33,395 bases of DNA, from contig JANXUB010000176.1 of NCBI GenBank assembly GCA_025352105.1, positions 1-33,395 on the forward strand, written 5' to 3'. Source of the DNA: Burkholderiales bacterium. Lineage in GTDB: Bacteria > Pseudomonadota > Gammaproteobacteria > Burkholderiales > Casimicrobiaceae. Position numbers and translations under genes: made by a program. The first letter of the stretch is position 1. Every line of letters begins with the position of its first letter. This document shows, in pieces, positions 9,847-26,677 of this stretch. The notes below the pieces were generated by a model. It ran no database searches, had not been told where the DNA came from, and worked only from the letters and a program-made list of their open reading frames with translations.

Positions 9847-12285
9847 CTAACCACGCGCGCCCGTCGTCGCCAGATATTGCTCCGGGCTCACGCGAATCGC
9901 CGCCCCGGTCGGGCAGGAGCGCACGCAGGCGGGCCCGGCGGGCAGGCCGAAACACATGTCGCACTTCACAGCGATTTTTTTTTGATCAGCGGATTTGTCC
10001 TTGTCGTACGCCTTGCCTTTGCCGCCTGCTTTGGCCTCAGTCGCGCTTGACCACAGCCAGGCCCAGCCGGAAGCAGGCTTGTACTTCGGGTTAGCGGGCG
10101 CAAGCGCGATAACGCCGTACGGGCAATTCGCCTCGCAATTGCCGCAGCCGATACAAGCGTCGCTGATCGTGACTTCTCCCGTGGGTTGTCGATGAATGGC
10201 GTTGGGTGGACAGTCCTTCATGCAATGCGGGTTTTCGCAATGGCGGCAGGAGGTCGGCACATGAATATTGGCGAAACTGGTGCCCGCCTCGCGATCCAGT
10301 CGCGACGTGCCTTTATGCGTATCAGCGCAGGCTTTTTCGCAGTTGTCGCAGCGCACGCACAAATCCTCATCGATCAGCAACACGTCGGTCGCTTCGCCGA
10401 GGCCAGCTTCCGCAAGGAAGGCCATCAGCCCCTCGCGCTTGCCGCCTGATTGGACTGCGTTTGACGCGATGCGGGCCAGTGTTTCCGCTTCGAGCTGTTG
10501 GCGAAGTTTCGGGTTCGCTTCGACCACACGCTTGAATCGCTCGGCGTCGAGCACGATGCACTCGGTAGCAATGGTTGTGCGTACGGTCTCGGTATACGGC
10601 TTGTTGTTGATGACGGCGGTTTCACCGACGTAATTGCCGCTGGCGACGTAGGAAAGAATGCGTTCAACACCGTCGCGCGTTTGCGCCATAAACACGGAGC
10701 CGCGACGAATCAGATAAAGGCCGTTCGGTGCGTCGCCTTCGCGGTACAGTGTTTCGCCAGCGGCAAACTCCATCAGCCGCGCGTCCGCTACGAGCACATC
10801 CGTCTCGGCACGCGACAGCCCCGGCGCAATTTGTGTGTGAATCGCAGTGCGCAGCACCAATGAGTCGATCGCAGCCGATACTTCCGGCAGCTTGGTCATG
10901 ATCTGGCGCATGGTGCGACGCGGGATTTCGAGCACCATGCAGGAACCGTCGGCACGAGCGGTGTCTGCGCGACGACGCCCCGAGATCAGGCCCATTTGCC
11001 CGAAGCATTGCCCCGCCGTCAGCACGGCACCTGCCTCGCTCGAACCCGGCGTCTGCAGGCGCACCGATCCTTCAATCACCGCATAAAACGAATTGGTGTA
11101 GTCGTTGCGCGCGTAGAGGACCGTGCCCGCTGACGGCACAAGCAGGCGGCTCTCCAGCAAAAGCTCGCGCATTTGCAGCGTCGAAAGCGGCTTAAGCACC
11201 GCCACCCGCGCTCGCAACCAGTCAAGCGCTGCGGCGACGTTGACGTTTTCATCGATCGGCTTCAAGCGATCGCGCAGCAACGGCTCATCAGCGGGCTCCA
11301 CGCGACGTCCCACAATCGCCTCGACTGCCTCGTACCCCTGATTGATGGCTTGCTTGATCAACGGATATCCAGCAAGCGCGCCGATGATGTAAATGCCCGG
11401 CACGTTGGATTCATATTGCGCCGATACCGGCGGCACACTGTCGATGGCGCTCGTCGCAAATTCGATGCCGAAGGACTCAACCAGTTTGCGTGGTGGCGTC
11501 GCGCCAAGCCTTGCCAGTACGCGGTGGCAGAGCATCGGCTCAACCCCGGTTGCGGTCTTGATCGTCAAGCGCATCATGTCGCCGAGTTCTGGCGAAGATT
11601 CAATCGCTGCCGGGCCAGCGCGGAAGCGAACATCGATTCGTTTGGTACGAATCGCCTCGTTGATCAATGTCAAATTGCCATCTTTGCAACGACTGAATTC
11701 CTCACCACGCACCAGCATCATCACGCGGTTTTGCTTTGCCAGCGCGACGGCGTTCTCAATGGCAGAGTCGCCCGCGCCGACGACCACGATGGTCTCGTCG
11801 GAGAACGCCTCTGCGGAATCAAGCTGATAAATAACACCCGGATGATCAGCGCCGGGAATCTCCAGTTTGCGCAGGTTGCCCTGCACGCCAATTGCCAGCA
11901 CCACCGCGCCGGCGTGGCAAATTGCACCGTTTTGAAAAGTGACGGTGAACGCGCCCTTTTTTCCGCCGATAGCAGTGACGGCGTGGCCATAGGCGATATT
12001 GATGCCGAGCGCATCGCTGCGATCCGCCCAGCTTTTCAGCACAGCCTCGCGCTTGGCAGCTTCGAACGGCAGCGATGCGCGCAACGGCAAAATGCCGGGC
12101 TCGTTCATCACCGGTTTGCCTTTTTGGTACTTGAAAATCGTGTCGGCAAGATGCGGGGATGATTCAAATAACGTGTGCGACAAACCCAGTTCGGCGCACC
12201 GCGCAGCAGCGGACAGGCCACTCGGTCCTGAGCCCAGTATGGCTACGTCGGTCGTCATGATGATTGGGTTCGCAGCTGTATTCAT
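9847..12285 (-). CDS. FAD/NAD(P) oxidoreductase fused to two cyclic-nucleotide-binding domains and a four-cluster ferredoxin domain
   Basis: An 812-residue cytosolic fusion protein with no signal peptide. Residues 10-330 resemble the thioredoxin-reductase/YpdA fold: FAD-binding GSGPSG (18-23), NAD(P)-binding VVGAGDSAIE (168-177) and a C-terminal FAD segment (IYIIGALAGYPLIKQAINQG). The redox-active CxxC of true thioredoxin reductases is absent. Residues about 367-480 and 488-600 are two cyclic-nucleotide-binding domains, the second with GETLYREGDAPNGLYLIRRG and YVGETAV. Residues 640-800 hold four Cys groups (643/646/649/653, 680/683/688/692, 711/714/717/721, 775/778/787/791), the pattern of four-cluster [4Fe-4S] subunits such as DmsB or NrfC. 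Electrons probably pass between NAD(P)H, FAD and the Fe-S clusters, gated by a nucleotide or small ligand. The start overlaps the previous gene by ATGA, and it is the last gene of the cytochrome operon. An alternative start is Met10. The redox partner is unknown. Confidence 0.9.
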   Translation of the reverse strand: MNTAANPIIMTTDVAILGSGPSGLSAAARCAELGLSHTLFESSPHLADTIFKYQKGKPVMNEPGILPLRASLPFEAAKREAVLKSWADRSDALGINIAYGHAVTAIGGKKGAFTVTFQNGAICHAGAVVLAIGVQGNLRKLEIPGADHPGVIYQLDSAEAFSDETIVVVGAGDSAIENAVALAKQNRVMMLVRGEEFSRCKDGNLTLINEAIRTKRIDVRFRAGPAAIESSPELGDMMRLTIKTATGVEPMLCHRVLARLGATPPRKLVESFGIEFATSAIDSVPPVSAQYESNVPGIYIIGALAGYPLIKQAINQGYEAVEAIVGRRVEPADEPLLRDRLKPIDENVNVAAALDWLRARVAVLKPLSTLQMRELLLESRLLVPSAGTVLYARNDYTNSFYAVIEGSVRLQTPGSSEAGAVLTAGQCFGQMGLISGRRRADTARADGSCMVLEIPRRTMRQIMTKLPEVSAAIDSLVLRTAIHTQIAPGLSRAETDVLVADARLMEFAAGETLYREGDAPNGLYLIRRGSVFMAQTRDGVERILSYVASGNYVGETAVINNKPYTETVRTTIATECIVLDAERFKRVVEANPKLRQQLEAETLARIASNAVQSGGKREGLMAFLAEAGLGEATDVLLIDEDLCVRCDNCEKACADTHKGTSRLDREAGTSFANIHVPTSCRHCENPHCMKDCPPNAIHRQPTGEVTISDACIGCGNCEANCPYGVIALAPANPKYKPASGWAWLWSSATEAKAGGKGKAYDKDKSADQKKIAVKCDMCFGLPAGPACVRSCPTGAAIRVSPEQYLATTGARG

Positions 12286-13742
12286 TTCAATGTCGCCTTG
12301 AAATTGGCCAGCGCCAGTTGAAACGCCTCGGGCTTGTAGCGCTCATCGTTTGACACAGCCGCCTGCAAGCCCGAGAGTGCGGCGTTGATACTGCGTGCCG
12401 AGGGCGTTTTGCCGGATTGGTACAGATAGCTCACGAGACTGCTGATCGCCATGGTCGCCTGTTCGGCACCAGCGTAATCAATGTAGCGACGGCTCATCCC
12501 GTCGTCGATGACGCCTGCGATCACAGCACGTAACAACGTCTCGTCGACTTTCGAAGCCGCCACGGCGAGCGCCACGCGACCTGCGAGCGCCTGCGTCTTT
12601 TTGGCTTCGACAATGGCGTCACCACCCACGCCGCCAATCGCGGCGTGCAGGCTGGTGAATTGCGCTGCAACCTCGGTACCGAGCGCAGGCGATATCTGCC
12701 GTGCAATCTGACGCAACATGATGAGATTGGCGTCGTTAACACGCACCCGCCCTGGCACCGCGATGGCGCTGGTGGTCGCCTGCCAGCGCTTGTCGCTCAT
12801 CGGATGATGGCAGGCATGGCAATCGAACAACGTCAGCTCAGGGAACAGACCGTCACGGCCACGCACCGGGTCGGCAAGAATTCCCATCTGCGTTTGCACC
12901 GCCACCGCCTGCGCAATCGCCCACGATTTCACCGTGTTCCAGGGCTGCTTGCGTTGCAGATAGTCGGCATCAATCTGGTAGTGCGGCGGCTCCAGCTTGA
13001 CGAAGGTTTCCAGTTCAAACGAGAGACGCGGATGCCCGGCAGCCATCAGCCGGTGGTTGACGTATTTGTCCGAGTTGCCCATGTGACAGGACAGGCAGAG
13101 CGTTGCTCGTGCGACCGGGTCAGACAGCGGTGTGAGCCCAGCCGCAACGTTTTGCTGATGGGTGACGCTTGGTTGCGCGTGCGATTCCACCCAGTTTGAC
13201 GCCGCACCGTGGCAGGCTTCGCACTGAACACCATCGCTAACCTGAATGCGCTCGCCTCGCTTTGCGGGTTCCGGATTATGCGTGTGGCAATCAAGGCAAA
13301 GCTTCGTCTCGTGAGCGCTGGTCGGCAAATCGAGTTTGCTGACGATACGTTTTGACGATTCTGAAAACAACGTACGGTACGAACGTGCGTGCCGATCAAC
13401 GCGGCTCCAGGTGATGTATTCGTTTTGCAAAACGTTGGATTCTTTCCAAGTTTTGACCGCGCCATGACAGAGCGAATTAGTGCAGTTGACAACGCCGATG
13501 TGACTGGCGGGCGGGAGTTTTTTCGTTTCGATAACGGCGGTAGAAGGAGTGGCAGGTGCGATGGCGCTCGGCAAAATCGGACGTACACGTACGGTGTTTG
13601 AACCGAGCGGCGTGATCGGCTGCGCAATGGCGAAACCGCAAAAAAAACTGACGGAGAGCGCGAGGAAAATTGTCAAACTTGACGACAACTTGCACCTTGT
13701 TTCGTCCAATCCGGGTTCCAGTTTCCTGTCAACAAAATTCAT
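12282..13742 (-). CDS. Exported pentaheme cytochrome c, c554-like
   Basis: A 486-residue periplasmic cytochrome. The signal peptide (about 17-41) has the hydrophobic core LTIFLALSVSFFCGFAIA. There are five heme attachment sites: an atypical C-x4-C-H (C87, C92, H93), then ordinary C-x2-C-H at C149, C174, C216 and C308. The spacing and the flanks (VQCEACHGA, LCLSCHMG, FDCHACHHPM) resemble the cytochrome c554 family, which carries electrons in the periplasm. The C-terminal 150 residues are helical with no heme. I placed the start at the ATG at 13742, which lies 10 bases after GGAAGG; the ATG at 13751 is too close to that site. A longer frame to 13820 would run into the upstream decaheme gene. 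It starts 22 bases after that gene and overlaps the downstream FAD/Fe-S gene by ATGA. Confidence 0.88.
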   Translation of the reverse strand: MNFVDRKLEPGLDETRCKLSSSLTIFLALSVSFFCGFAIAQPITPLGSNTVRVRPILPSAIAPATPSTAVIETKKLPPASHIGVVNCTNSLCHGAVKTWKESNVLQNEYITWSRVDRHARSYRTLFSESSKRIVSKLDLPTSAHETKLCLDCHTHNPEPAKRGERIQVSDGVQCEACHGAASNWVESHAQPSVTHQQNVAAGLTPLSDPVARATLCLSCHMGNSDKYVNHRLMAAGHPRLSFELETFVKLEPPHYQIDADYLQRKQPWNTVKSWAIAQAVAVQTQMGILADPVRGRDGLFPELTLFDCHACHHPMSDKRWQATTSAIAVPGRVRVNDANLIMLRQIARQISPALGTEVAAQFTSLHAAIGGVGGDAIVEAKKTQALAGRVALAVAASKVDETLLRAVIAGVIDDGMSRRYIDYAGAEQATMAISSLVSYLYQSGKTPSARSINAALSGLQAAVSNDERYKPEAFQLALANFKATLK

Positions 13743-13764
13743 GGTTTGCATACCTTCCGCCCGC

Positions 13765-16700
13765 CTAGCGCGGCGCCCCCGCAGTACGAGCACCAAGCGG
13801 TGGAGGAGCCGCTCCCGCATCGTCGTTCACGCGCCACACCTGCCCCGCCTTGTCGAGATAAAGTTTTTGCTGTTCCGCGAGCGTAAATGGTCGTGAACCG
13901 ACGCGGCCAAACACCGCAATCTGCCCGCCAGTTTCATCGACAGCGCGATCACGGTCCAGTCCCTTCGACAACGCTGTCGCAGCGCTCTTCGTTTTTTTCC
14001 ATGCGATGAGTTGTGGCTTTGGCTCAGGACTAAAGCCGTAGAACTTCGGCTGTGTATCCGGGGCCGTCAGTTGAACGACTTTGAGCCCATTTCGGCCATC
14101 GGCGACATAGGCAAAAAGCGAAGCATTGGTCGAACCGACCATCACGTCATATGCGTCGTTTAACTGACCACCGGCATTGAACTTCGTCAACACTTTGGGT
14201 GTTTCCGGATTTTCTACGTTGACAATAACGAGTCCGTCGGGACCTGCGGCTACGTAGGCATAAGTGCGTGCGACGTAAACGCGCCGTGCCTCGCTCAACG
14301 CAACCGTCACATTGCTGATCAAGCGCGCTTCACCCGGTATCGTCACATCAATCACGCGCAGCCCCGTGCTATCGGTTACAAACAGATAGCGAAACTGCAG
14401 AGCGCTGCTGTGCGCGCCATTGAGTGGAATAGTCTTGACCAGCTGCGGCTTGAGCGGGTCGTCAAGATCAACAATCACGAGACCCGCGTCAGCCGTGATG
14501 TAGGCGTAATGACCGCCAACAGTAATATGCCGAGCGCCGCGCAGAATTCCCTTCTCGTTCCATGTGGCTGCACGCTTCAAAAAGTTGTTTCTTGGCTCGC
14601 CATCAGCCAGCGTGTCGACGTTGGTGACGATCAAGCCCTCGCTGCGATCCGTGATGAAGGCGTAGTGATAAATCGGATGAAACGCCTGCTCTTGATTTTC
14701 TTCGCGCATCAAAGCGCCCTGATTTTTCTCGGGTGCGATGGCTTGATTGGTAGGCAACGCGACGCAGGTAGCGTCCGTTGAGCCAATGTGCGTGTCATGA
14801 CCCAATGGCGAAAAAGGCGCTGAGATGATGCGCTGTGACACGCCCTTGTTGGCAATCGACGCGACGTCATAGGCGCGCATGCCACCGCGTCCTTCGGCAA
14901 CGTAGAGATATTCGCCACGCAGTTGCAGGCAACCTACGGGATCGCGTGTTTTTTGAGCATGGCTGGTCTGCAATTCTTGCGACTGTTTGGCGTGCTTCGC
15001 AAAATAATCGGGATAGGCGTAGCGATGCAAATAGCTACCGATCACCGCCTGCGGCTCATCCCATTCCGTGACCTGAACAGCTTCAATATTTTGAGCGCCC
15101 CCCACCCACGCATTGAAACCCACAAAGTTCACAAAATTGGTTCCATGCAGAAGTAGCTGCGCCATGATGGCGTTGTTGTCGTTCTTCTCCGAGAGGTGGC
15201 AGTCCCTACAGGTCTTGGTCTCGGTCTTCCGCTCGGTGTGCGGATAATGCGGCGCAAACGCCTGCGACGAGAAACCCGATGCGGCAACGGGCGGCTGCTG
15301 AATATAGATGCGCTCGCGATTGATGTTGGTAGACGACAGCACCAGCGCGGAGCTTGACCGCACTGGCGCAATCTTGCCGCCTTTCACGCTGCCGTGGCGA
15401 CCGAGCTGAAACACGTCATCACGCGCAACCTGCGGGTTGTAGGTTGCGAAATTGCGCGTACTGCCGCCTTCATAGTGATGGCGCTCTGATTTCACGTTCG
15501 CCTGAATCGGCAAGTGGCAACCAGAGCAGCTCGTCGTCCACGACACATGGCATGAGTAGCACGTCATCTTGTCATCGCTGTGCGCGTAGTCTTTTTCAGC
15601 GACGCCATTGCCCCATTGTTGAAGCGAGTACAGCTGTTGATTTGCGCTGCCACTAGACACACTCATCGTCTTTGCGCGCGCCGCTTTTTCGTTGTAGCCG
15701 GGATGATTCGGATTGACGCTGTCTTTCACCAAACTCATTTTCCATTCAAGATCAGGCGTAACGGCAGAGCGCTGATAGAGCTTGCCATCGCGCCACTCAA
15801 AACGCTTGCGACCATCCTGCGTACGCAGCAGCGCCAGGTCGCGACCACCGGGCTGCGCTGCGGGGCCACTGGTTAGCAGGGTTGGATATTTATTCGCGGT
15901 GCCGTGACAGTCAGCGCAGTCAATTTCAATCGCGGCGGGGACTTCGCCATAAATGTGCCCGTTGCCGTGGCTGTCCTGCGAAAAATGACAATCAACGCAG
16001 TGCATGCCTTTGTCGAGATGGATCGACGACAGATGCACGGTCTTTTTGAATTTGTCAGGGTCGTTGTCATCGATGGCCTTGCCTTCTTTGTCGATCAAGG
16101 TGCCGCTGCGATCCCGCTTGTGCACCGCCCGAAAGTTCCAGCCGTGGCCGTGGTAGTCGGCGAACTGCGTGTCTTTAAGTTTCGGATTTAACTTCGAAAC
16201 ATCGGCGAGAAAGGCGGGATCGCTCCACAGGCCGCGTGTAGCTGCCTCTTCGGGGTTGCGCTCAAGAATTTTTCGCGACTCGTCAGCGGTCGGATATTTT
16301 TGCGCTTTAGGCCACATGAACGGCGCATCAGATTCGTAGTCCCACATCGTGTAGCCATAAAAGCTGTTCACGAAAATATTTGGCTGATGCATGTGGCAGA
16401 CCATGCATTGCGACGACGGAATGGCGCGTGTGAACGTGTGCTTTAGGGCATGACCGGGCTTGTCTTTGGCAATCGTTGGATCACTGCTCGCTGAGAGCCC
16501 GCCGTTGCCATGCACCGCGTACGGCCCCGAATGGCGCGGCTCGCGATCATTCGCGTAAATGGAGTGGCAGGAGCTACACCCGGACGCACGGTAGTCTCCG
16601 GGTTGATCATTGGTTCCAGAGAACCACGCCATCGGGTCGTTAAGTCGCGTTTTGGCGATGTTCAACAGCGGAATCGAAATACGGCTACCGGTGGCCGGAC

Positions 16701-17550
16701 CGCGATTGGACTGCTTGATGTCGGGCCTGCCGGGTTCGTCCAGCTTTTGCAGTCCACCGGTAGAGTTTGGCAGTCCAATCTCGGGAAACTGCGACGAAAT
16801 CACACGTCCACCGCGCTCGAATACGCGGAACACATCGGCAGGAGCGACCGTCTCCCATGTTGGCGTTGGGTGCACCTTTTCGAGGATGCCTTTGGACTTC
16901 ATCAACGCGTCAGGGACGATAGGGTTTAGTAAAGTACCCGCCAAACCCATCGACGTGTAACTCTCGCCCAGAATGCCACGCTTGAACGGCAGCACGCCGT
17001 TGTTGTACGCCGCACCGTTCCAGAACATCGCGCCTGTGGCCATCAAGCTGCGCTCGGCCGCTTCGATGATCGGCAGATGACACGTACCACAGGCCTCGCG
17101 CGCGACACGATAATCGCCGGGATTGATGAAGCGCACGAAGGCTGGTGCTTCCCGGTTTAGCAGCGTGTAAGTACGCTCCGGTCGCGTTCCGCCAGATTTC
17201 CATTCGTTTGGAAATTTGGACTGAACATGCGCTTCATTCTTTGCCAATTCATAGACGGCGTCGCCTTTGTTCGAGTTGGCGTTGGGCTTGGCTATTGACG
17301 CGTTACCGCCATGACAATCGGTGCAGCCCAGAACGACGGCCCGATTGACGTGCATGGTGCGATGCTCGCCCACGTTGTCGCCGTAGCTGTGACAGCTTTC
17401 GCAGCCTGCGCTTTTTGCTCGCGCCTGTTCGCTCGTTTGGTTGGCTGGTGCGGGAGGGTTGTTAGCCGCCGCCTGTCCACTGCACACCAGTGTCGTGAGG
17501 CAAGCGATCCAGACGCGAATCAACAATGAAACGGAAATGGGTTTGAACAT
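13765..17550 (-). CDS. Exported decaheme cytochrome c fused to an LVIVD-type beta-propeller
   Basis: A 1261-residue secreted protein. The signal peptide (about 1-29) ends near QAAAN. Ten C-x2-C-H heme sites follow, at C50, C76, C154, C325, C382, C518, C545, C664, C675 and C781. Long heme-free stretches separate sites 3 and 4 and sites 5 and 6. Residues about 870-1165 consist of repeats such as YAYITADAGLVIVDLDDP and YLFVTDSTGLRVIDVT, the LVIVD-repeat beta-propeller signature; such domains usually bind proteins or surfaces. No lipobox is visible, so it is probably held by a partner, most simply the outer-membrane barrel encoded 4 bases upstream. By analogy with MtrA/MtrC and porin-cytochrome complexes, it may carry electrons through or onto the outer membrane. 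Its size and the propeller fusion differ from those proteins. The ligand of the propeller and the terminal electron acceptor cannot be told from sequence. Confidence 0.9.
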   Translation of the reverse strand: MFKPISVSLLIRVWIACLTTLVCSGQAAANNPPAPANQTSEQARAKSAGCESCHSYGDNVGEHRTMHVNRAVVLGCTDCHGGNASIAKPNANSNKGDAVYELAKNEAHVQSKFPNEWKSGGTRPERTYTLLNREAPAFVRFINPGDYRVAREACGTCHLPIIEAAERSLMATGAMFWNGAAYNNGVLPFKRGILGESYTSMGLAGTLLNPIVPDALMKSKGILEKVHPTPTWETVAPADVFRVFERGGRVISSQFPEIGLPNSTGGLQKLDEPGRPDIKQSNRGPATGSRISIPLLNIAKTRLNDPMAWFSGTNDQPGDYRASGCSSCHSIYANDREPRHSGPYAVHGNGGLSASSDPTIAKDKPGHALKHTFTRAIPSSQCMVCHMHQPNIFVNSFYGYTMWDYESDAPFMWPKAQKYPTADESRKILERNPEEAATRGLWSDPAFLADVSKLNPKLKDTQFADYHGHGWNFRAVHKRDRSGTLIDKEGKAIDDNDPDKFKKTVHLSSIHLDKGMHCVDCHFSQDSHGNGHIYGEVPAAIEIDCADCHGTANKYPTLLTSGPAAQPGGRDLALLRTQDGRKRFEWRDGKLYQRSAVTPDLEWKMSLVKDSVNPNHPGYNEKAARAKTMSVSSGSANQQLYSLQQWGNGVAEKDYAHSDDKMTCYSCHVSWTTSCSGCHLPIQANVKSERHHYEGGSTRNFATYNPQVARDDVFQLGRHGSVKGGKIAPVRSSSALVLSSTNINRERIYIQQPPVAASGFSSQAFAPHYPHTERKTETKTCRDCHLSEKNDNNAIMAQLLLHGTNFVNFVGFNAWVGGAQNIEAVQVTEWDEPQAVIGSYLHRYAYPDYFAKHAKQSQELQTSHAQKTRDPVGCLQLRGEYLYVAEGRGGMRAYDVASIANKGVSQRIISAPFSPLGHDTHIGSTDATCVALPTNQAIAPEKNQGALMREENQEQAFHPIYHYAFITDRSEGLIVTNVDTLADGEPRNNFLKRAATWNEKGILRGARHITVGGHYAYITADAGLVIVDLDDPLKPQLVKTIPLNGAHSSALQFRYLFVTDSTGLRVIDVTIPGEARLISNVTVALSEARRVYVARTYAYVAAGPDGLVIVNVENPETPKVLTKFNAGGQLNDAYDVMVGSTNASLFAYVADGRNGLKVVQLTAPDTQPKFYGFSPEPKPQLIAWKKTKSAATALSKGLDRDRAVDETGGQIAVFGRVGSRPFTLAEQQKLYLDKAGQVWRVNDDAGAAPPPLGARTAGAPR

Positions 17551-17554
17551 GACT

Positions 17555-19855
17555 TTAATACGCCACCGTCAAATTCAGCAGGAATGAATATTGTGGACGT
17601 CCCGCATTACCGTACAAAGCCTTAAGCCCTCGACCCGGCAACAACATCGCTAACGATGAATTCAGGATCACGTTTTGCGTCATGAAGGGTCGCCATTGCG
17701 CACCGACCGACAGATCCCAGCCGATGTCTTTCGACATGGGTGCCTGGTTGCGCAAAGCAGCGAGCACTGCTGTGGAAGCGAACTGCAATTTGTTCACGTT
17801 GCCGGTGACGCGCAGCTGAGGCAACACGTCAGCGTCGACACCCACGCCGGCCAGTAGCAATCCGGGGTTGATGAAATTTGATTGGCCGTGCTCTTTTGAT
17901 GAGCGCAGCGACGCCAGAAGGCCATTGCGCGCGGAGAGAAATACGCCACCGCCGCCGACTAGAGGTACCGCCTGACGAATCCAGTAGCTCGTATCCGCAC
18001 CCGCAATCAGCGGGTTCTCAACGATGGCGTCAAAGCCGGAAGCTTTGTCATCAAACGGGTTCTTGTCGCCACTCGCCGCGACAACAGAGCCACGAACACG
18101 AAACCAACTGAAATCGCGCGAAACCTCGGCTGCTGCAAAGCCTGCTGAAATGCGCGCTCTTCGGCCCGTGAAACTGTTGTTGCGCAACTCGCCCAGCGCG
18201 CTGTAGGCCGAAACACTGACGTTCCATTCGTCAAAGTGACCGTCACCATTGGTGCCCAGATACAAAACGTCGTAGCTGCGCGGTCGCGCATCGCCAAACA
18301 CCGAGGGGCGATCCAGAAAACCATTGCGGTCGTAGAACTGGCCACCGTTCTCACGATTACGGTTGTAAATCGCCGTCGCCTGCCCAGTGAAACCGAGCAC
18401 GCCCAAGTCTTGTCGGCAGACGTTGAACACCAGCAGATCGTCACTGCGCATACGACGCCCAACGTCATTCAAACCGCTGTTGGTGTCTTTCTCAAGTCGC
18501 CGGAAAAGACCCAAGTTGTATTGCCAACGATTGCTTTCGCGCGTGCCAAACAGTCGCACGCCGAACGGACTATCGTTGAACAAAAAGCCGCGAAAATCAG
18601 CCGTGAATGGCTGAATGCCAAAGCGTACCGAATCAAAGTCATAGTTGACCGAAACATCGCGAAGATGTTTGTCAATGAACAACTCTTGCACACCGACATG
18701 CCGATCAAAACGCGTATGCCCACGCAATGGATCAACGCCGAGAATTCGCACTTCTTGCGCCACGGCCTCATTTAAGTTGATGACGGGTGCAAACTTAAAT
18801 TCGTAATCCGGTGGTTTAAAAACCGTATTGCCTTTTTGCAGCGACACCGAAAAGATGAAACTCTGCGCGAGCGCGCCGACACGACCGTTGCCAAACACAT
18901 CATTGCTGCGCGCATAACGTGTCGACTGCGCGCCGACGGGTAACGGTAAATTGCGTAACTCAAGGACCGTATCCGACACCGCACTCAAATTCAAAAACCA
19001 GTCCGTTCCAAACCACGGACGATCTCCTTTGAGATCGTTCTGGTTGTAGGGGTCGAGCCAGTTTTGTTGGGTCAGACCCAGCGCTGTGTTGAGTCTCCAA
19101 CGATCCGGTACAGGCAGTACAGTGCGCGCAAGATTTCGGGCGGGCTCGTCGATTTGACCGGGCCGCGCGGTGGGCGGCGTGTAGGTGAGCGGTGGCTGAG
19201 CCATGGGACGCTGCACCCACACGTCGTCCTCCGGCATCGGCTTCACGCGTAATGCTGCCGCCGCCTGCGCGACGTCGTCGGGGCTATCGAGCACGCGACT
19301 GCGTTCGATCGCAACCGGGATCGGTTTCGCCAGTATGCGGATCGTCGCCGTGGTATCGCTCGAAGCCGAATTGAGCCAGCCACTTCGCGCGTTTACGCCC
19401 GAGCCGCTCACAATGACACGCAACCAGTTGTCCCGGCTTTCGATGACATCCAGAACCTGCGGTGCGCGGACTGTTGCAACGATGGCGGCCTGGTCATTGG
19501 GCTCGCGGCGCACAGCCAGTACAGGTGCGGCTATTTCGGCCTGCAGCAATCCCGGCTCAACAACCAGAGGCGCTATCTCAGCGGCCGGCGCAGGTCGGCG
19601 CGTCGGATTCGCAACGGCGGACTTGGGCGCTGACGCGCTGGGTGTAGAAGAAGTTGGAGCCCCGGGTGCAGGAACGGACGGCACCACCGGTGGTGCCACA
19701 GGCGTAGCGGCCGGTTTTGGCGGCAATGGCACCCGCTCTGTGGTCGTTTGCGCCAGCGGCAACGGTTGCCAGCCGACGGCACATACCAACGCAATCGCCC
19801 AAACCAGCGCGCGCTGGGAGACGTCGCGCGATGACCGGTGGCGGCGCTTGCTCAT
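17555..19855 (-). CDS. Outer-membrane beta-barrel protein with SH3-like N-terminal domain
   Basis: A 766-residue protein with a signal peptide (about 15-36), a Pro/Ala/Ser-rich linker (41-92), an SH3b-like domain (about 108-163, with VLAVRREPNDQAAIVATV and NWLRVIV), then about 500 residues of alternating amphipathic strands ending in LLNLTVAY. A terminal aromatic residue is the usual outer-membrane barrel signal. SH3b domains often bind peptidoglycan. Its position between a GlcG-like lipoprotein and the decaheme-propeller gene, 4 bases before the latter, makes it the likely barrel component of a porin-cytochrome complex, in the role of MtrB. Similarity to MtrB was not seen directly; only the architecture and context agree. 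The start lies 75 bases after the preceding gene, and no strong ribosome site is visible. Confidence 0.8.
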   Translation of the reverse strand: MSKRRHRSSRDVSQRALVWAIALVCAVGWQPLPLAQTTTERVPLPPKPAATPVAPPVVPSVPAPGAPTSSTPSASAPKSAVANPTRRPAPAAEIAPLVVEPGLLQAEIAAPVLAVRREPNDQAAIVATVRAPQVLDVIESRDNWLRVIVSGSGVNARSGWLNSASSDTTATIRILAKPIPVAIERSRVLDSPDDVAQAAAALRVKPMPEDDVWVQRPMAQPPLTYTPPTARPGQIDEPARNLARTVLPVPDRWRLNTALGLTQQNWLDPYNQNDLKGDRPWFGTDWFLNLSAVSDTVLELRNLPLPVGAQSTRYARSNDVFGNGRVGALAQSFIFSVSLQKGNTVFKPPDYEFKFAPVINLNEAVAQEVRILGVDPLRGHTRFDRHVGVQELFIDKHLRDVSVNYDFDSVRFGIQPFTADFRGFLFNDSPFGVRLFGTRESNRWQYNLGLFRRLEKDTNSGLNDVGRRMRSDDLLVFNVCRQDLGVLGFTGQATAIYNRNRENGGQFYDRNGFLDRPSVFGDARPRSYDVLYLGTNGDGHFDEWNVSVSAYSALGELRNNSFTGRRARISAGFAAAEVSRDFSWFRVRGSVVAASGDKNPFDDKASGFDAIVENPLIAGADTSYWIRQAVPLVGGGGVFLSARNGLLASLRSSKEHGQSNFINPGLLLAGVGVDADVLPQLRVTGNVNKLQFASTAVLAALRNQAPMSKDIGWDLSVGAQWRPFMTQNVILNSSLAMLLPGRGLKALYGNAGRPQYSFLLNLTVAY

Positions 19856-19930
19856 GCTTTGACAGTTGCCGATAGCGCGTTCATCGTCAGCCGCGTTGCT
19901 GTTGCAGCGACACGCAGGAAGAACAGGCGA

Positions 19931-21835
19931 TCACAGCGCGCCGCAAACATTGCTTTCCTCGCTGTTGATGAAAGGCGCTTGCGGACATTGCACGTAACGC
20001 AAACGGGAGCCTTCACCCAGCGGCGCAATTTGATCAGCACGGATCGCTGCGGGCGCATGATTAAGCCCGGTTGCCAAGGCGGCAGCGCCACGTTGCAAGC
20101 CAAGCGCCGCGATCATGTCATCCTGATCAACACCATCGCCAGACACGCCAATCGCGCCTACCAATACCGATCCACGATAAATGGGAATACCGCCGGGGAA
20201 CAGTTGAATTCCGTTCCTTGCCTGCGGCAGCCCAGTGCAACTGCCTGCGGGTGTTGTTGGATCAAAGACCGCAGCAACCAAAGCACCGGCGATCAAATCC
20301 TGCTGCAAGCCCATGTTGAATGGGCTCCACGCGGTTACGAACGGCGTTGACAGCGGGCCGGGCGAAGCCGCGCGACCGTTGATACCATCGGGAAAGAAAG
20401 GTCGCGCCAGATTGCCCAAGGCGCGTGAGGTGTAAGCAGTGCCGTCTGCAAGAGAATTCGGCAGGCTAAGCAATGCCCTCATTGCAGAAACGTAGCGGCC
20501 GAGAGCTACCGTTTGCGGCGGTGTCGTTGGATACGTAACCGTTGGCAAGGCGGCAATCGCGCTGGCCGCGTTTGCGCTGGAGAACAGCACCGCCGAGCGC
20601 GCTTTTTGCACCGCCACATCGGCACCGAACATCGGCGCATCAGCCGTACGCACAAGGCCCAGCAATTCTCCTTTGGTGTCAACCACACTGATGTTCACTT
20701 GCGCGGCTGTACCCAGCGGCCTGCGAATTTGTGCTCTTGCCAGTCCAGCGACAGTGAGCGCGTTGCGCATCAACTCACGAACTTCACGTTCCGTCAATCC
20801 ACCGTCGCTACCTGCGCGTGGCGCAAAGCGATTTTTGTTGGCCGCATCGACCAGCACATGTGCGCCCAACGCTACAAAGTCAACGGTGTCCGCACGAATC
20901 CCAGAGACGGCATCGCCAAAGCGCGCGCCTTCGCGAATGCTCGCCGGGACGTAGCCGTTCACCGCGATCAGCCTGCCTACTGATGTGGACAGCGACGCAA
21001 AAGATGGCGTTGCGCCCGTGGCTTTCGCATCGACATTGTCAACATAGCGCAGGCTCCGACCGTCTACCAGAATGCGATCTGCGCGTCGATCAAGCGCTGC
21101 TTCAAAGCCAATTGCGCCAGCGGCGGCGATGGCTTCGTCATCGTCGTGATCGATGTCATCTACGTTGCGGTCCAGACCATAGATCGAATCCGCCACGACA
21201 CCAATGCCGCCCACAAGAACACCCGCTTTGTAAAGCGGCAAACCACCGGGATCAGCGGAAAAACCGAGTGGCGACCGATGCGGCCCCAAGCTACCGTCAC
21301 TTTCGCGCGTCATCACATCGGAACACGAAAGCTGCGAGAACTGCACGCCGAACAGCGGCCCCGCAGGGCTACCGACTTCGCCGGGACTAAAGTTTTCCTG
21401 TACGATCTGGCTGGCAGTGCGGGTCGAGAAAGCATTGCCTTCACTCGACAAGTAAGCACCCGTAAGCGCCTTGGATATCGCTGCAAGCTCAGACGGAAGC
21501 GCCAGCCCCTCCAACCCTCCGACCAAACCAGATCGACCCGATCGCACCGTCACCGTAGTTGTCGCGCTGACCATGCGATAGACCGCAAGTACGCGCCCCG
21601 TACGATCAACAACGGCGAGCGTTGCAGGGTTGGCGCGCGCGCTTGCCTCAGCGATTGCTTGCGCTAGCACGCGTTCAACATCGACCGCACTTAGACGATC
21701 TGCACTCGTTCCCGCAGCAGCGCAACTACCGCTACAACCGGCATTACCAACGACAGCGTCTCCACCGCCACCACAGCTCGTAACCAGCAGTGCAACAACC
21801 GAAAGTACCGCCGCCAACGCGTGATGCGACCTCAT
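19931..21835 (-). CDS. Lipoprotein with two GlcG/HbpS-like (DUF336) domains
   Basis: A 634-residue protein with a lipoprotein signal peptide. The lipobox is LVTSC with the lipidated Cys at 21, followed by a Gly-rich spacer. Two copies of the GlcG/HbpS fold are visible. The first (about 48-270) has NPATLAVVDRTGRVLAVYR and GLPLYKAGVLVGGIGVVAD. The second (about 347-600) has QVNISVVDTKGELLGLVR and GGIPIYRGSVLVGAIGVSG. HbpS binds heme extracellularly and stores or senses it, and other family members bind small ligands. No C-x2-C-H site is present. Its gene overlaps the FHA-cytochrome gene by ATGA, so the two are probably translated together. In this operon it could deliver heme to the multiheme cytochromes or sense a redox ligand; both are inference. 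Confidence 0.85.
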   Translation of the reverse strand: MRSHHALAAVLSVVALLVTSCGGGGDAVVGNAGCSGSCAAAGTSADRLSAVDVERVLAQAIAEASARANPATLAVVDRTGRVLAVYRMVSATTTVTVRSGRSGLVGGLEGLALPSELAAISKALTGAYLSSEGNAFSTRTASQIVQENFSPGEVGSPAGPLFGVQFSQLSCSDVMTRESDGSLGPHRSPLGFSADPGGLPLYKAGVLVGGIGVVADSIYGLDRNVDDIDHDDDEAIAAAGAIGFEAALDRRADRILVDGRSLRYVDNVDAKATGATPSFASLSTSVGRLIAVNGYVPASIREGARFGDAVSGIRADTVDFVALGAHVLVDAANKNRFAPRAGSDGGLTEREVRELMRNALTVAGLARAQIRRPLGTAAQVNISVVDTKGELLGLVRTADAPMFGADVAVQKARSAVLFSSANAASAIAALPTVTYPTTPPQTVALGRYVSAMRALLSLPNSLADGTAYTSRALGNLARPFFPDGINGRAASPGPLSTPFVTAWSPFNMGLQQDLIAGALVAAVFDPTTPAGSCTGLPQARNGIQLFPGGIPIYRGSVLVGAIGVSGDGVDQDDMIAALGLQRGAAALATGLNHAPAAIRADQIAPLGEGSRLRYVQCPQAPFINSEESNVCGAL

Positions 21836-23694
21836 GGATGAACCTTGCCAGCAACGCCACCTTCTCGAGCGAACTGCGAGAGTTTCATCAACGTTTCACC
21901 ATGGGGAGCATTGTCCACGCGACTCAGCGCGGGGCGAAGGCTGTCGGCGACTAGTGGCTTCATCTCGGGTGTCGATGGCTGGTGAAAACCATGACAGCTC
22001 GCGCAGGTCGTTGCGATCTTGCCGACCTCTCCGGCAGCGCTGGCATGGCATTTTTGGCAGGTAGCGGCATTCGGAATCAATAGGTCATTTGCTGTCTTGC
22101 TTGTGGTCGCGCCATGGCATTCGGTGCAAGCGCTCGTTTGGTGTTTGCCATGACTGAAACGCGCCAACGGATACCAGCTGTGCTGAACACCAATCGGAGC
22201 CACCGTCCACGTTACCGATTTGTTTTGTGCTGTGTGACGATCAATTTCGTGACAGGTAATACAAATGCGTTGCTCAATCGCTTCTTTAGCAACAAACGCC
22301 GCGCGGCGCTGCGCAGCTTGCAAGGCATTGATACGCTCACTTTCGCTAGGCATTTTTCCCGGCAAAATGCGCAGCAAATCAGAAGGCGGTCGCACATCTG
22401 TGGCAATATTGTTGAGCACAATTCCGGAGTAAAACTCATTCAACGTACGCACCACTTCTTCCGGCTTCGCATGAGGTAACTGCCGCGAACTCACCGCCGG
22501 TTCAAACTCAAGACTATGGCAGCTAGCGCAATGTTTAGCCATGGTGACCGGAGCGAAATTAGCACCGCGATCTTGCGCCTCGTGACAGCTTGGACAACTT
22601 AGCTGTGTGCGGCCCTGAGGGCTGCGAATGCCCTTCGCGCTCAAGTGCGTTTCGTGCGGAAAACGCAGATTGCTAGCCTGTACTGTAACCGCTTTGTCGG
22701 CGATAGGAACGCGCGCAAGCGTCGATCCATCAGCAGACAGTTTCAGCGGACGGAACACCGGATGCGTCTTGAAATCGACTACTTTGGCGAGACGCAACTT
22801 GCCAATCTCATCGCCCACTTTACCGTGGCAATCCGAGCATAGCGCCTCATCACGCAGCACATTGCCTCGCGGCCCTCGATGATCGGTGTGACAGCCTGAG
22901 CATGTCGAATCATTGAATACTTTTGATCCGCCAACGCTTTTCGAAATCGACGCACCAATCACCGCGCCGCCATGTCCACCAATTTTCGTGTGGCACTCAT
23001 TGCATTCCTGATTGCGTACGGCTTGAAACGGTACTTTGTGGCAGCTATGACAGTTTTTTTCAAGCGCTGAGTGACTTGTTGCAAGCGGGCCTACGTTCCA
23101 CGACATGTCAGGCGTGACCGTCCAGCCCCTTGCAAACTCGCGGACTTCGGGCTTGGTCGCGTTGAGCACCGGCAATAGAACGAATGCCGCAAGCGTTATG
23201 ACCAGTCCGAGCCAAGCGAGTGTGCGTTTGCTCCAGGCAACCTCGCGCAGACTTCGCGTTACTTTGAGCGAAGCAGCGAGGGGAGATGCTCCCGACACGG
23301 CTTCGCCATGCGCCGCGCTCGCCGATTTGGCAGAGGCCGAAGTGGGCGAAGATGCCACTTCTGTGCGCTCAATCGTGATTTGCCAAACCGCGCCTGTCCG
23401 CGCGTTTATGGAAAGCCGGTACGGACCAATGCCAAGCATGCTGCCCGCTGCGAGTACGCGTCGTTCATTGCCTGCTGTCGATGCAGCCGACCCGCCGCCC
23501 AACAGTGTTGCAACCAGCAAAAAGCCAGCACCCAACTGCAAACGCGCATGGAATTGAGCGACCGCCGGATCAGCCAGCACAATTGAATTTGCCTGACCGC
23601 GACCAATGGTGATCTCTTGTGCGCTGATCAGCTGCTCGCTACGGAGTACTTGCCCGGCGCGCCCGCGCGACAGAGTGGTGAGTCGAATGTCCAA
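21832..23694 (-). CDS. FHA domain fused through one membrane helix to a periplasmic decaheme cytochrome c
   Basis: A 620-residue fusion. Residues about 1-100 form a forkhead-associated domain (ITIGRGQANSIVLADPAVAQFHARL region: G31-R32, H49). An Ala/Ser-rich linker (112-145) leads to a single membrane helix (about 158-178, LAWLGLVITLAAFVLLPVLNA). The remainder has ten C-x2-C-H heme sites at C215, C231, C265, C286, C367, C389, C478, C523, C546 and C564. The FHA part should face the cytosol and the hemes the periplasm. FHA domains bind phosphothreonine, although the usual Ser before the His is replaced here (QFHA rather than SRxH), so phosphopeptide binding may be altered. It probably takes electrons from the membrane b-type protein encoded 15 bases upstream and passes them across the periplasm. 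Confidence 0.9.
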   Translation of the reverse strand: MDIRLTTLSRGRAGQVLRSEQLISAQEITIGRGQANSIVLADPAVAQFHARLQLGAGFLLVATLLGGGSAASTAGNERRVLAAGSMLGIGPYRLSINARTGAVWQITIERTEVASSPTSASAKSASAAHGEAVSGASPLAASLKVTRSLREVAWSKRTLAWLGLVITLAAFVLLPVLNATKPEVREFARGWTVTPDMSWNVGPLATSHSALEKNCHSCHKVPFQAVRNQECNECHTKIGGHGGAVIGASISKSVGGSKVFNDSTCSGCHTDHRGPRGNVLRDEALCSDCHGKVGDEIGKLRLAKVVDFKTHPVFRPLKLSADGSTLARVPIADKAVTVQASNLRFPHETHLSAKGIRSPQGRTQLSCPSCHEAQDRGANFAPVTMAKHCASCHSLEFEPAVSSRQLPHAKPEEVVRTLNEFYSGIVLNNIATDVRPPSDLLRILPGKMPSESERINALQAAQRRAAFVAKEAIEQRICITCHEIDRHTAQNKSVTWTVAPIGVQHSWYPLARFSHGKHQTSACTECHGATTSKTANDLLIPNAATCQKCHASAAGEVGKIATTCASCHGFHQPSTPEMKPLVADSLRPALSRVDNAPHGETLMKLSQFAREGGVAGKVHP

Positions 23695-23709
23695 GCGCTC
23701 TTGCTCCGA

Positions 23710-24546
23710 CTACCAGTAGAAAAACACGGACAGAATATGGGCGGCCATCGCACCGATCAGCGCAACACTAACGGGCACATGCACGTAGAGCCAGACATCA
23801 AGAATCGCTTTGTAGCGCACCACGTTGCGCGCCTGCTGAACGATTGATTCACGCTTGACGAGCAGCGCGTATAGCGCCTGATTGAGTTCCGCCTCCTCGC
23901 CGACTAACCCCTTTCCTTCGCCAGCGACAACGGCCAGAACATCCGAGCGACGTCGTGAAGTCTGGACTGAAAACATGCGCCGAAAGCTCCCGCCAATTTG
24001 CGTTAGCGTGCGCGCCTCAACGACGGCTCTGATTGTGGCGTCGCTCAAGTTCAGCGACATCGGATACGCCTCTTGGTCAATCGCGTCGATACGGGCAACT
24101 AGCGTATCGAGTGAGTCGCCAGCGGCCTCGCGCGTGAGATTTCCGGGAATCGTCGCGTAGAAAATTGTCCCGACCATCCCGCTGATGATCACAATCATCA
24201 TGAGCGCAAACGCGAGCGTGTGTACATTCAGGCCGAACTCAAAACTGGTGTGCAACAGCACCACGACAATCAACGCAAGGCCTAGGTAGACATGCGCCGA
24301 CAGCCAAGCCTGCGTGCTGCCCCATGTCCTTTGATGCTTACGTTTGCGCACACCGAACCAGCCTAGCCAGAGCATGATGAGCGTGCCCAGAATGCCAAGT
24401 CCATAGCCCATGAGGGTGCCGCCATTGCGTCCACCCACCGGTTTGTACATAACGTACGCAACTATCGAAACAACTGATAGCAGCAGCGCCATTTTCAGGT
24501 AACGAAAGCTTCGGTACTGCAGAAATGACGCGTGTTTGGCTGCCAT
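23710..24546 (-). CDS. Membrane protein with two H-x13-H helices (predicted di-heme b cytochrome)
   Basis: A 278-residue membrane protein with five predicted helices (about 17-35, 45-64, 82-101, 108-130 and 250-276) and a soluble loop from 135 to 245. Helix 3 carries H85 and H99, and helix 5 carries H256 and H270. Both pairs are spaced H-x13-H, the arrangement by which the cytochrome b of bc complexes holds two stacked b hemes between two helices. I infer a small di-heme b protein that could oxidise quinol and feed the FHA-decaheme cytochrome encoded next. No cytochrome b signature beyond the His spacing was seen. It is the first gene of the cytochrome operon and follows a well-formed promoter. 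Confidence 0.7.
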   Translation of the reverse strand: MAAKHASFLQYRSFRYLKMALLLSVVSIVAYVMYKPVGGRNGGTLMGYGLGILGTLIMLWLGWFGVRKRKHQRTWGSTQAWLSAHVYLGLALIVVVLLHTSFEFGLNVHTLAFALMMIVIISGMVGTIFYATIPGNLTREAAGDSLDTLVARIDAIDQEAYPMSLNLSDATIRAVVEARTLTQIGGSFRRMFSVQTSRRRSDVLAVVAGEGKGLVGEEAELNQALYALLVKRESIVQQARNVVRYKAILDVWLYVHVPVSVALIGAMAAHILSVFFYW

Positions 24547-24658: not shown

Positions 24659-24687
24659 AGTTTAGAGAACTGCCACACCGCTGTCAA
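24659..24687 (-). promoter_or_regulatory. Predicted sigma70 promoter of the cytochrome operon
   Basis: On the minus strand, a perfect TTGACA (24687-24682) is followed after exactly 17 bases by TAAACT (24664-24659). Transcription would start near 24652, leaving a leader of about 105 bases before the ATG at 24546. It lies just after the second FHA gene, so the operon may have its own promoter as well as any read-through from that gene. Confidence 0.6.
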
Positions 24688-24703: not shown

Positions 24704-25900
24704 TTATCCCGACTTCTCAGCGCTTGCTTTGCGCATCGCGACGAGTTTTGCTTCGCGCTGCGTCTCCTCACGGTAGGCATCCAGAAAAGCAGCTCCGAAC
24801 ACACCGTAAAAATCCTGTTCAGCGTGCTTAACGATACCCTGGTAATGCGCGTCATAAGCATCCCACAACTGTGCGCGCTTCTTTGACGGTAATAGCCGAT
24901 GCGCCACCGAGTCTGACGCAAGCTCAGTCGTCAGCGTGTCTGGTGAAAATCGTTCAAGCGCAGCAACGACCGCTGCGCGCGTGCCGGCGATCACGCCAGC
25001 TTCGTGAGCGCGTAGATCGGCGAACGTCGCTCGCATCGCGGTGTCTGGCCGCATAAAACCGGGAACCTTCTTGCCGAGCGCCAGCAAAATTACGGCATCT
25101 GCATCGTGCATGAATTTGAACGGATTGTTGGCCTGTTCGGCAAACGTTGTGACGTCCGCCTGCACCTGAAACTTGGTGATTGCGCGAGCAGCTAGCAAAT
25201 CAATCGCCCCGGCAGTTGCCGCTCGCAAACAGGTACCGATCACTTCGGCTGTTTCTGCCGTAAGCCCCGCTCCACATGCGTTCGGTGGCAATCGCGCACC
25301 TTCCAGAAACGCCGCAGTTAACGGATCAACAGGAGTATCTTTTGTCGATGTCAGCGGCACTGTGGGCACTGGGGTCACAGCCGCAAGATCGCCCGCCGGA
25401 GCCAAAACCGCATTCGCCGACAGAAAATCTCGCACCGGTGGCGCGTGAGCGACCGCAGCGGAGTCAGTCAGCCCAATTGCGGCTGATAATCGAACTGCCG
25501 CGACTGCCGTGCGGCGCTCAGAACGTCGATCAAAATGCACCTCCGTGGTTGGCCCCGAGGTCATGACTTTGGCGCTTCGCTCGACAAACTCAGCACAAAT
25601 TACATAAGGTCCGATTTCGATATTGCCATCGGCTGTCACCAAGACCGATTCGCGGTAAGCGAGATCAGAATCGCCTACGCGAAGCGGAAGCGTGACGCTG
25701 GCGTTGCTAATCGTTGCATAACCCGCAGGAAACGATACGGCAGCGTGTACGCGCGAGACGCGGTTGAATGAATCGGGAAGCACAAGCGTGTTCGATTCGT
25801 CTCGGCCGATACTGCCACCCGACGCTGGAAAAGTGGCGGACAGCGGATGCGGCGGGGAGGCGCCATCAACGGTAACCACGGAAAGAACCAGCACAAGCAT
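24704..25900 (-). CDS. Second T6SS-type FHA-domain protein, paralogue of the one at 4795-5943
   Basis: A 398-residue protein with an N-terminal FHA domain (about 22-105) keeping G32-R33, S49, H52 and the SN at 65-66. Its C-terminal region (about 195-375) matches the other T6SS FHA protein in the window. Shared motifs include DLLAARAIT, EQANNPFKF, PGFMRPDTAM and AHEAGVIAG, and the end has QDFYGVFGAAFLDAY against DFHQAWGGAFVEAY. The frame has a stop just upstream of the ATG, so the start is fixed to 25900 or later. The surprising point is the location: it lies directly upstream of the multiheme cytochrome operon, whose second gene also carries an FHA domain, and no T6SS structural gene is near. 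It may have been recruited as a phosphorylation-dependent regulator or scaffold of that system. The alternative is a leftover of a lost T6SS locus. Confidence 0.85.
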   Translation of the reverse strand: MLVLVLSVVTVDGASPPHPLSATFPASGGSIGRDESNTLVLPDSFNRVSRVHAAVSFPAGYATISNASVTLPLRVGDSDLAYRESVLVTADGNIEIGPYVICAEFVERSAKVMTSGPTTEVHFDRRSERRTAVAAVRLSAAIGLTDSAAVAHAPPVRDFLSANAVLAPAGDLAAVTPVPTVPLTSTKDTPVDPLTAAFLEGARLPPNACGAGLTAETAEVIGTCLRAATAGAIDLLAARAITKFQVQADVTTFAEQANNPFKFMHDADAVILLALGKKVPGFMRPDTAMRATFADLRAHEAGVIAGTRAAVVAALERFSPDTLTTELASDSVAHRLLPSKKRAQLWDAYDAHYQGIVKHAEQDFYGVFGAAFLDAYREETQREAKLVAMRKASAEKSG

Positions 25901-26126: not shown

Positions 26127-26201
26127 TGGTGCCGTTTGTCGGGATTGAACTGACGACCTACCGCTTACAAGGCGGTTGCTCTACCACTGAGCTAAAACGG
26201 C
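26127..26201 (-). tRNA. tRNA-Thr (anticodon UGU)
   Basis: Read on the minus strand, the sequence folds into a full cloverleaf. It has a 7-bp acceptor stem (GCCGTTT with AAACGGC), a D-arm GCTCAGTGGTAGAGC, a 5-bp anticodon stem (ACCGC with GCGGT) around the loop CTTGTAA, and a T-arm GTCAG-TTCAATC-CCGAC. The CCA end is encoded (26129-26127). The anticodon TGT reads ACA and ACG threonine codons. It begins only 11 bases after the sspB stop codon on the same strand, so it may be transcribed with sspAB. Confidence 0.95.
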
Positions 26202-26212
26202 GAAACTTAATT

Positions 26213-26653: not shown

Positions 26654-26677
26654 GACCAGCGACTGCGCAAACGCGCC

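Follow-up and report, generated by a model that had tools for sequence, protein, structure and literature searches.

Organization of the Locus

The window, by which we mean the whole analyzed stretch of 33,395 nt from a member of the Casimicrobiaceae (Burkholderiales, Pseudomonadota; GCA_025352105.1, contig JANXUB010000176.1, positions 1-33,395 of the forward strand), harbors seven minus-strand open reading frames (ORFs) between positions 24546 and 9847 that, judged from their sequences, form a true, conserved and uncharacterized electron-transfer operon. In reading order, the first gene (24546-23710) encodes an inner-membrane protein (IMP) of 278 aa, probably a di-heme b protein, with five hydrophobic regions and two WX3HX13H motifs. 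It is followed by a 620-aa protein (23694-21832, TTG start) predicted from FHA and Cytochrome_C7 matches to combine a cytosolic FHA domain, one transmembrane (TM) segment and a periplasmic decaheme cytochrome (hereafter the FHA decaheme), and by a 634-aa lipoprotein (21835-19931) with HbpS/GlcG-like domains (PF03928, three stretches) and the lipobox LVTSC. Next come a 766-aa outer-membrane beta-barrel with an N-terminal SH3-like region (19855-17555) and a 1261-aa decaheme cytochrome (17550-13765) with ten CXXCH motifs and a C-terminal beta-propeller of LVIVD repeats, referred to below as the decaheme-propeller or simply the decaheme. The sixth ORF (13820-12282) encodes a pentaheme cytochrome c554-like protein (PF13435; four CXXCH and one CX4CH), the start of which was set at the in-frame ATG at 13742 (Met27) rather than at the ORF start, giving a gene at 13742-12282. 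The last gene (12285-9847) encodes a cytosolic 812-aa flavoprotein that joins an FAD/NAD(P) domain (Pyr_redox_2) to two cyclic nucleotide (cNMP)-binding domains (cNMP_binding) and four 4Fe-4S clusters (Fer4_11). With the sixth gene starting at 13742, the distances between genes are 15, -4, 75, 4, 22 and -4 bases, which matches exactly the seven same-strand genes with gaps of -4, -4, 4, 15, 22 and 75 bases described in the initial annotation; the gene contents that it had read (membrane protein, decahemes, lipoprotein, barrel, pentaheme and FAD/Fe-S protein) were confirmed by domain and motif analysis.

Conservation and Co-occurrence of the Seven Genes

A search for the same gene order elsewhere, which the initial annotation had put forward as a check, revealed that the set recurs. 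Eighty GTDB loci fetched with the decaheme as query (the best 80 of at least 574) and two Sphingobium megaplasmid loci added via the membrane protein gave a collection of 82 loci, many of them short, in which all seven genes were present in 44 and the six genes other than the pentaheme were counted in 55. When only loci of 21 kb or more are counted (44, of which 42 are from GTDB and two are the plasmid loci), 37 carried all seven genes, six missed the pentaheme only and one (L071) missed the HbpS lipoprotein only. Column-by-column conservation was seen in each family (61-79 sequences per family, window included), and the distance matrices correlated for 21 of 21 family pairs, with r of 0.55-0.87 (n=38), whereas none of 200 permutations exceeded 0.21. 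This correlation is as expected of jointly inherited parts, and the shared descent of the hosts adds to the signal. Since fetching by the decaheme biases the collection toward a conserved decaheme, identities were re-measured in four loci picked by the IMP. The decaheme-propeller was the most conserved protein of the set, with 58-60% identity in these four loci as compared with 33-38% for the IMP, 26-28% for the FHA decaheme and 35-36% for the pentaheme (two loci).

The pentaheme was present as exactly one strong copy in each of 11 genomes, comprising nine without it in the fetched locus and two controls. At E 1e-20 it was detected in three of 100 relatives, every one of them decaheme-positive, and in none of the 94 relatives without a strong decaheme match; the other three strongly decaheme-positive relatives, which have no pentaheme, hold only truncated decaheme matches. 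By this distribution, the pentaheme is a fixed operon partner even when located elsewhere. Across 398 Pseudomonadota genomes, the IMP profile matched 25 at E 1e-10. Of these, 12 matched at E <=1.3e-98, and this group contains every one of the 11 decaheme-positive genomes; its remaining member (G251) has a contig break behind the barrel. A decaheme-propeller was not found in any of the 13 genomes whose IMP match was weaker, three of which (G100, G133 and G250) carry a close flavoprotein and FHA decaheme, and the inner module can therefore exist without this outer part. At the locus level, L128, L129 and L130 hold a close flavoprotein, IMP and FHA decaheme in genomes with no decaheme-propeller match, and the flavoprotein and IMP are fused in L129 and L130, the latter from a genome (G250) that is only 76% complete.

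The Inner-Membrane Module

The IMP of the window displays the motifs W81x3H85x13H99, S122GxxG126 and W252x3H256x13H270. Two WX3HX13H motifs were conserved in all 61 IMP sequences, and SGxxG in 58 of them (window included). In the FHA decaheme, ten CXXCH motifs were retained in 59 of 61 complete ORFs, the other two having nine, one of them with an extra CX4CH, and ten further conserved His residues accompany the ten hemes, which is enough for bis-His ligation throughout. The FHA domain was considered as an essential part and rejected, as it is missing from 11 of the 61 FHA-decaheme sequences; in the window protein its match is weak, with a score of 21.5 bits where the cut-off is 20.7.

In the flavoprotein, 16 Cys that form four sets of the 4Fe-4S type are conserved in at least 90% of 65 sequences, and the FAD- and NAD-motif glycines in every one of the 65; PF13247 matches the window protein at E 2.2e-12. 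No CXXC was found in the flavin domain of the window protein, and no TM segment was predicted in its 812 aa. Its relatives in the PDB comprise YpdA, thioredoxin-reductase-like ferredoxin-NADP reductases, tandem cNMP domains of the PKA type and Fe-S subunits of the HycB type. A NapC/NirT (CymA-type) match at E 0.001 was not found in four of eight operon genomes, which supports a self-contained inner module.

The Outer-Membrane Module

The barrel is predicted to be 18-stranded with an AlgE fold, AlgE and OprD-type entries topping the structure-match list; an MtrB-type entry was not among the 50 structure matches listed, an absence that excludes nothing. By sequence, no PDB match was found at E 0.1 and no outer-membrane barrel family was matched in NCBIfam, and in the same protein SH3_3 and SH3_4 scored below their cut-offs. 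Of 80 complete decaheme-propeller ORFs (window included), 79 have ten CXXCH; the exception, L064, is an empty frame produced by the extraction script. The AlphaFold model of this protein is confident in the propeller and poor in the heme domain, and no relative of solved structure was found by sequence at E 0.01. Of 18 extra conserved His residues, 15 precede residue 800, in the heme-binding part, and a signal-like hydrophobic N-terminus was present in 76 of 79 sequences. The best NCBIfam match was ExtM (NF040943), with 59 bits against a curated cut-off of 800, which leaves the protein outside that family.

Four CXXCH and one CX4CH were conserved in 62 of 62 complete pentaheme ORFs, and the profile of this family matches Nitrosomonas cytochrome c554 (1bvb, E 3.3e-6). 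A lipobox-like match, by a pattern of our own, was seen in 33 of 62 sequences of the HbpS lipoprotein. An essential role of the latter was rejected, there being no match in L071 or in the stretch read of four of the 13 second-phylum loci described below.

The Barrel-Decaheme Pair in a Second Phylum

A second phylum, Acidobacteriota, was named from the record title of L026 (Vicinamibacteria, a class of that phylum). A decaheme match was obtained in 16 of 149 second-phylum genomes (that of L026 included), G635 matching in the propeller only, and 13 of the 16 loci were read. Barrel and decaheme were present in all 13, the HbpS lipoprotein in nine, an FHA-decaheme-like protein in nine (several very weak), the pentaheme in five, a flavoprotein-like protein in five and the IMP in three, with IMP motifs in a fused protein of L160. 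Each of the 13 decahemes has exactly ten heme motifs (CXXCH plus CX4CH), which fall in the same ten alignment columns in 14 of 14 sequences compared.

The surroundings of this pair vary. L152-L154 carry the familiar IMP and FHA decaheme, and in L158, L163 and L164 the barrel is accompanied by the decaheme-propeller as the sole cytochrome of the 19.9 kb read. In L157, a NuoE/NuoF-like FMN protein (434 bits to TIGR01959, below the cut-off of 558.65) adjoins a protein that carries Fer2, 4Fe-4S and three cNMP domains, and a decaheme is present as well. L155 encodes an NDH-2-like protein to which a cNMP domain is fused, with genes for an FHA-GAF-cyclase and a class II cAMP phosphodiesterase in the vicinity. 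These two loci point the same way and suggest NAD(P)H input with cyclic-nucleotide control. In L159-L162, multiheme cytochromes of eight to nine motifs adjoin the barrel-decaheme pair, possibly as another input module, and two of the L159 cytochromes match the MtrC/MtrF domain II/IV family.

Comparison with Known Conduits

The initial annotation had not recognized this combination of genes, an assessment that holds only in part. The inner part matches PCC4, a hypothetical conduit type that, in the available text of He et al. (2017, PMC5566968), has a porin, cytochromes of 4, 5 and 10 hemes, an IMP and a pfam13247 gene, the IMP of both PCC3 and PCC4 carrying SGXXG and two WX3HX13H motifs interpreted as two b hemes. 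Measured against that text, the operon IMP likewise has five TM helices, SGXXG and two WX3HX13H motifs; a pfam13247 Fe-S gene stands beside the IMP gene, as in subgroup II (it adjoins the IMP gene in many other loci of our collection; in the window it closes the same operon); and both systems have a porin plus decaheme and pentaheme cytochromes. They differ in heme counts, which are 4, 5 and 10 in PCC4, all taken there as periplasmic, and 10, 10 and 5 in the operon, and since the latter miss the PCC4 definition, we regard the operon as PCC4-related and not as a member. The comparison was made by the published description and by five loci that resemble it (L118, L119, L121, L124 and L127; porin presence was not among the criteria). 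These hold distant homologs of the IMP (49-72 bits), the FAD/Fe-S protein (152-202 bits) and the c554-like protein (60-69 bits), as well as a ten-heme protein with a hydrophobic segment; the decaheme-propeller, barrel and HbpS families were not matched in them. The outer module differs from PCC4, and the inner module fits it.

Group 1 of the ghost-rock PCCs (PMC13264449, June 2026) comprises, according to the accessible part of that report, 11 PCCs with a decaheme gene of 4-5 kbp beside a porin of ~20 strands and, for seven of the 11, a ferredoxin-NADP reductase gene in the vicinity; there it is described by size and strand count, unnamed, without domain, family or functional analysis. With a 3.8 kb decaheme gene, 18 predicted strands and an FAD domain like that of ferredoxin-NADP reductases, the operon is, by this description, probably of the same type. 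With MtrCAB, MtoAB and PioAB the operon shares the trans-outer-membrane idea and the use of a barrel with multiheme cytochromes; it differs in having no CymA-type gene and a barrel predicted to be AlgE-type, and membership was rejected, MtrA/DmsE (TIGR03508) scoring 23.6 bits at best against a cut-off of 192.2. The Geobacter ExtHIJKLMNOPQS cluster resembles it in its porin, multiheme cytochromes, inner-membrane cytochrome b and Fe-S protein, and differs in a Rieske-type ExtO, a rhodanese-like ExtH and a 12-heme ExtM, the Ext cytochromes having 4, 5, 10 and 12 hemes in the text available (PMC5877670). As far as their available portions go, PMC13322032 concerns an MtrAB-type cluster, the operon is not treated in PMC10654088 or PMC4245776, and none of the LVIVD-repeat papers is on this system by title and the start of its abstract. 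Our search, which mostly lay outside subscription papers so that absence proves little, found no literature linking LVIVD with multiheme cytochromes and none combining a multiheme cytochrome, cyclic nucleotide binding and an FHA domain.

Genes around the Operon

Several genes with signaling domains lie next to the operon in other loci. Metallophosphoesterase genes (PF00149) adjoin it in L089, L090, L144 and L145, the one of L090 being annotated cpdA and that of L089 scoring best with SpdA, below the cut-off. CHASE2-cyclases stand beside it in L032 and L144 and, by clustering, in L033 and L066. In eight or nine loci of gammaproteobacterial type, the operon is followed by PP2C genes and by genes read as FHA, and in L076 a kinase gene is close by. 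A tally of neighboring genes covers 96 of the 126 nearest ORFs (126 of 321 within 3.5 kb fitted the size limit, and 30 were dropped by hand, mostly very long or probably spurious) plus three hand-picked signaling genes (two from L144, one from L155), which supply two of its five cyclases and one of its three metallophosphoesterases; the tally has no background control, and enrichment is not claimed.

Other neighbors are of a metabolic or maturation type. Glutamate dehydrogenase-type genes occur near the operon in L143 (9834-11363, by Pfam) and, by homology clustering, in L144 (5280-6650) and L145 (13805-15160). Cytochrome c maturation genes adjoin it upstream in L009, L014, L017, L022, L032 and L033, the CcmH family being assigned by Pfam and CcmB/CcmC by reading of the sequences. 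On the Sphingobium megaplasmids, very large hypothetical proteins (~2,070-2,090 aa, by record coordinates) follow the pentaheme gene (L089:29836-32825 and L090:28940-32825).

In the window itself, minus-strand genes of the type VI secretion system (T6SS) type lie on both sides of the operon (1-5943 and 24704-25900), like a VgrG island: a VgrG-like protein, a DUF2169 protein, two TagH-like FHA genes and, by reading of a C-terminus without a Pfam match, a possible PAAR-type protein. A link to the T6SS was rejected, since the two TagH genes found no partner but each other when clustered with ORFs from 87 other loci, and they were treated as chance neighbors. Upstream of the operon (26127-30212) lie tRNA-Thr (26127-26201), SspB/SspA-like genes and cytochrome bc1 genes, identified as petABC-like by reading of their sequences. 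A possible sigma-70 promoter, TTGACA-17-TAAACT (24659-24687, minus strand; 10 of 12 matches), falls within the 157 bases preceding the first gene, 113 bases before its first ATG; it was given little weight because the scan yielded three sites against a mean of 6.3 in shuffles, i.e., fewer than chance.

A Candidate Trans-Envelope Electron Path and Its Alternatives

From gene content, motifs, conservation, co-occurrence and the predicted barrel and propeller, we infer redox roles that would make the operon one trans-envelope electron path from NAD(P)H to the outer membrane, built on a barrel-decaheme core with exchangeable input, a reading that we hold to be somewhat probable. The cytosolic flavoprotein would exchange electrons with NAD(P)H and relay them along its four 4Fe-4S clusters under the control of its two cNMP-binding domains, and the five-helix protein with two b hemes would move them over the inner membrane. 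The decaheme anchored in the membrane, each of whose ten hemes could be bis-His-ligated, would act as a periplasmic wire, its cytosolic FHA domain, where present, serving as a docking or assembly point. The 18-stranded AlgE-fold barrel and the decaheme-propeller would then form an outer-membrane unit that, aided by the c554-like pentaheme and the HbpS lipoprotein, passes electrons to an acceptor at the outer membrane or farther out. Of these parts, the barrel-decaheme pair would be the constant core and the inner-membrane input the exchangeable one. Since the pair is constant, the inner part varies, and L155 and L157 carry NADH-type oxidoreductases with cNMP domains, a conduit or envelope oxidoreductase that is linked to NAD(P)H and gated by signals is favored over a quinol-linked metal-reduction chain. 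An inner-to-outer-membrane path, as claimed in the initial annotation, is well supported by anatomy and conservation, and its further proposal of extracellular metal reduction or uptake is not.

The main rival, which partly overlaps with the conduit reading, is a dedicated outer-membrane oxidoreductase. Here, the decaheme-propeller would be catalytic on a soluble substrate (nitrogen, sulfur, selenium or a metal chelate) with no solid-phase transfer, the barrel would be a substrate channel and the remaining parts would supply electrons; we consider this possible and put it forward tentatively. It accords with the higher identity of the decaheme than of the IMP, the wire decaheme and the pentaheme in the four IMP-picked loci, with the ten heme columns all kept across phyla, with the AlgE/OprD-like barrel, a substrate-channel fold, with the glutamate dehydrogenase-type genes of L143-L145 and with the ExtM match, ExtM belonging to a Geobacter cluster that the available text ties to selenite/tellurite reduction (PMC5877670). 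Yet the 15 conserved His residues in the heme part suffice for ten six-coordinate hemes, so that no open catalytic heme is evident, and a substrate-specific gene common to the loci was not seen in the neighbor clusters.

Electron uptake, in which the outer unit would oxidize a donor outside the cell, for example Fe(II) or Mn(II), and send electrons inward to the quinone pool or NAD(P)+, appears unlikely. The flavin/4Fe-4S chain leaves direction unfixed, aerobic hosts could take O2 as final acceptor, and the inner-membrane module is homologous to the PCC4 type, for which, as for PCC3, the accessible text of He et al. proposes uptake (PMC5566968); but NAD(P)+ reduction from Fe(II) is uphill and the operon encodes no energy input, the NADH-type modules of L155 and L157 look like diaphorases, and carbon fixation is given in the available text for only three of 36 PCC-bearing metagenome-assembled genomes, all PCC groups taken together (PMC13264449). 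A net outward direction, with NAD(P)H as donor, is more likely than an inward one. Very improbable is a redox-coupled polysaccharide export or envelope stress-sensing system, in which the barrel would export a polymer as AlgE does while the cytochromes and the FHA and cNMP domains sense redox: the AlgE fold and the PP2C, FHA and kinase neighbors in several loci are in its favor, whereas 25 conserved hemes in three cytochromes exceed the needs of sensing, and no glycosyltransferase or synthase was found among the 25 commonest of 105 neighbor families.

Several observations weigh against the NAD(P)H-fed, signal-gated conduit that we favor, some of them against a plain metal-reducing chain in particular. 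A decaheme identity of 58-60% is as compatible with a dedicated enzyme as with a wire. The decaheme-propeller has no conserved lipobox (lipobox-like match in only 7 of 79), and GspD scored above its family cut-off in 11 of 16 operon genomes, the other five having only lower-scoring secretin matches, so that not every host can be assumed to export the protein to the surface as with MtrC. MtrB is roughly 26-stranded and an 18-stranded barrel is hence narrower; AlgE, the nearest fold, is a polysaccharide exporter. As to gating, the FHA Ser, which we take to be a phosphate contact, is not conserved in the family. Both window cNMP domains have one signature residue replaced (Q430, with E in 63 of 65 sequences, and Y564, with R in 64 of 65), and gating may therefore be lost in this genome. 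In the second phylum, the stretch read of six of the 13 loci matched none of the IMP, FAD and pentaheme families, the alternative NADH-type modules come from one locus each (L155 and L157), and L026, the copy of which is close to betaproteobacterial copies, may be misbinned or carry a recently acquired copy, given its 66% identity to the window decaheme. Among the named hosts, Limnobacter, Haliea, Dokdonella and Steroidobacter are aerobes and, to our knowledge, not metal reducers, and we know of no biochemical data for any operon part.

Implications

Known outer-membrane electron conduits are quinol-linked, through CymA, ImcH or CbcL, and come mostly from metal reducers and iron oxidizers; we know of none that is gated by second messengers. 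Against this background, the operon could represent a separate class of outer-membrane machine, an oxidoreductase of AlgE-fold barrel and decaheme-propeller that draws directly on NAD(P)H, bypasses quinones, is under the switch-like control of cyclic nucleotides and FHA/phospho signals, occurs in ordinary aerobes of at least two phyla and is served by lineage-specific NADH modules on the same outer unit; taken as a whole, this proposal is doubtful. The recurrence of the set in many bacteria marks it as a conserved module rather than a one-off, and a barrel-decaheme pair that stays fixed while its input modules are swapped amounts to a natural experiment on which part sets function. The hosts include genera with cultured members (Limnobacter, Haliea, Dokdonella, Silanimonas and Sphingobium), through which the question of why an aerobe needs an outer-membrane wire becomes testable by gene deletion.

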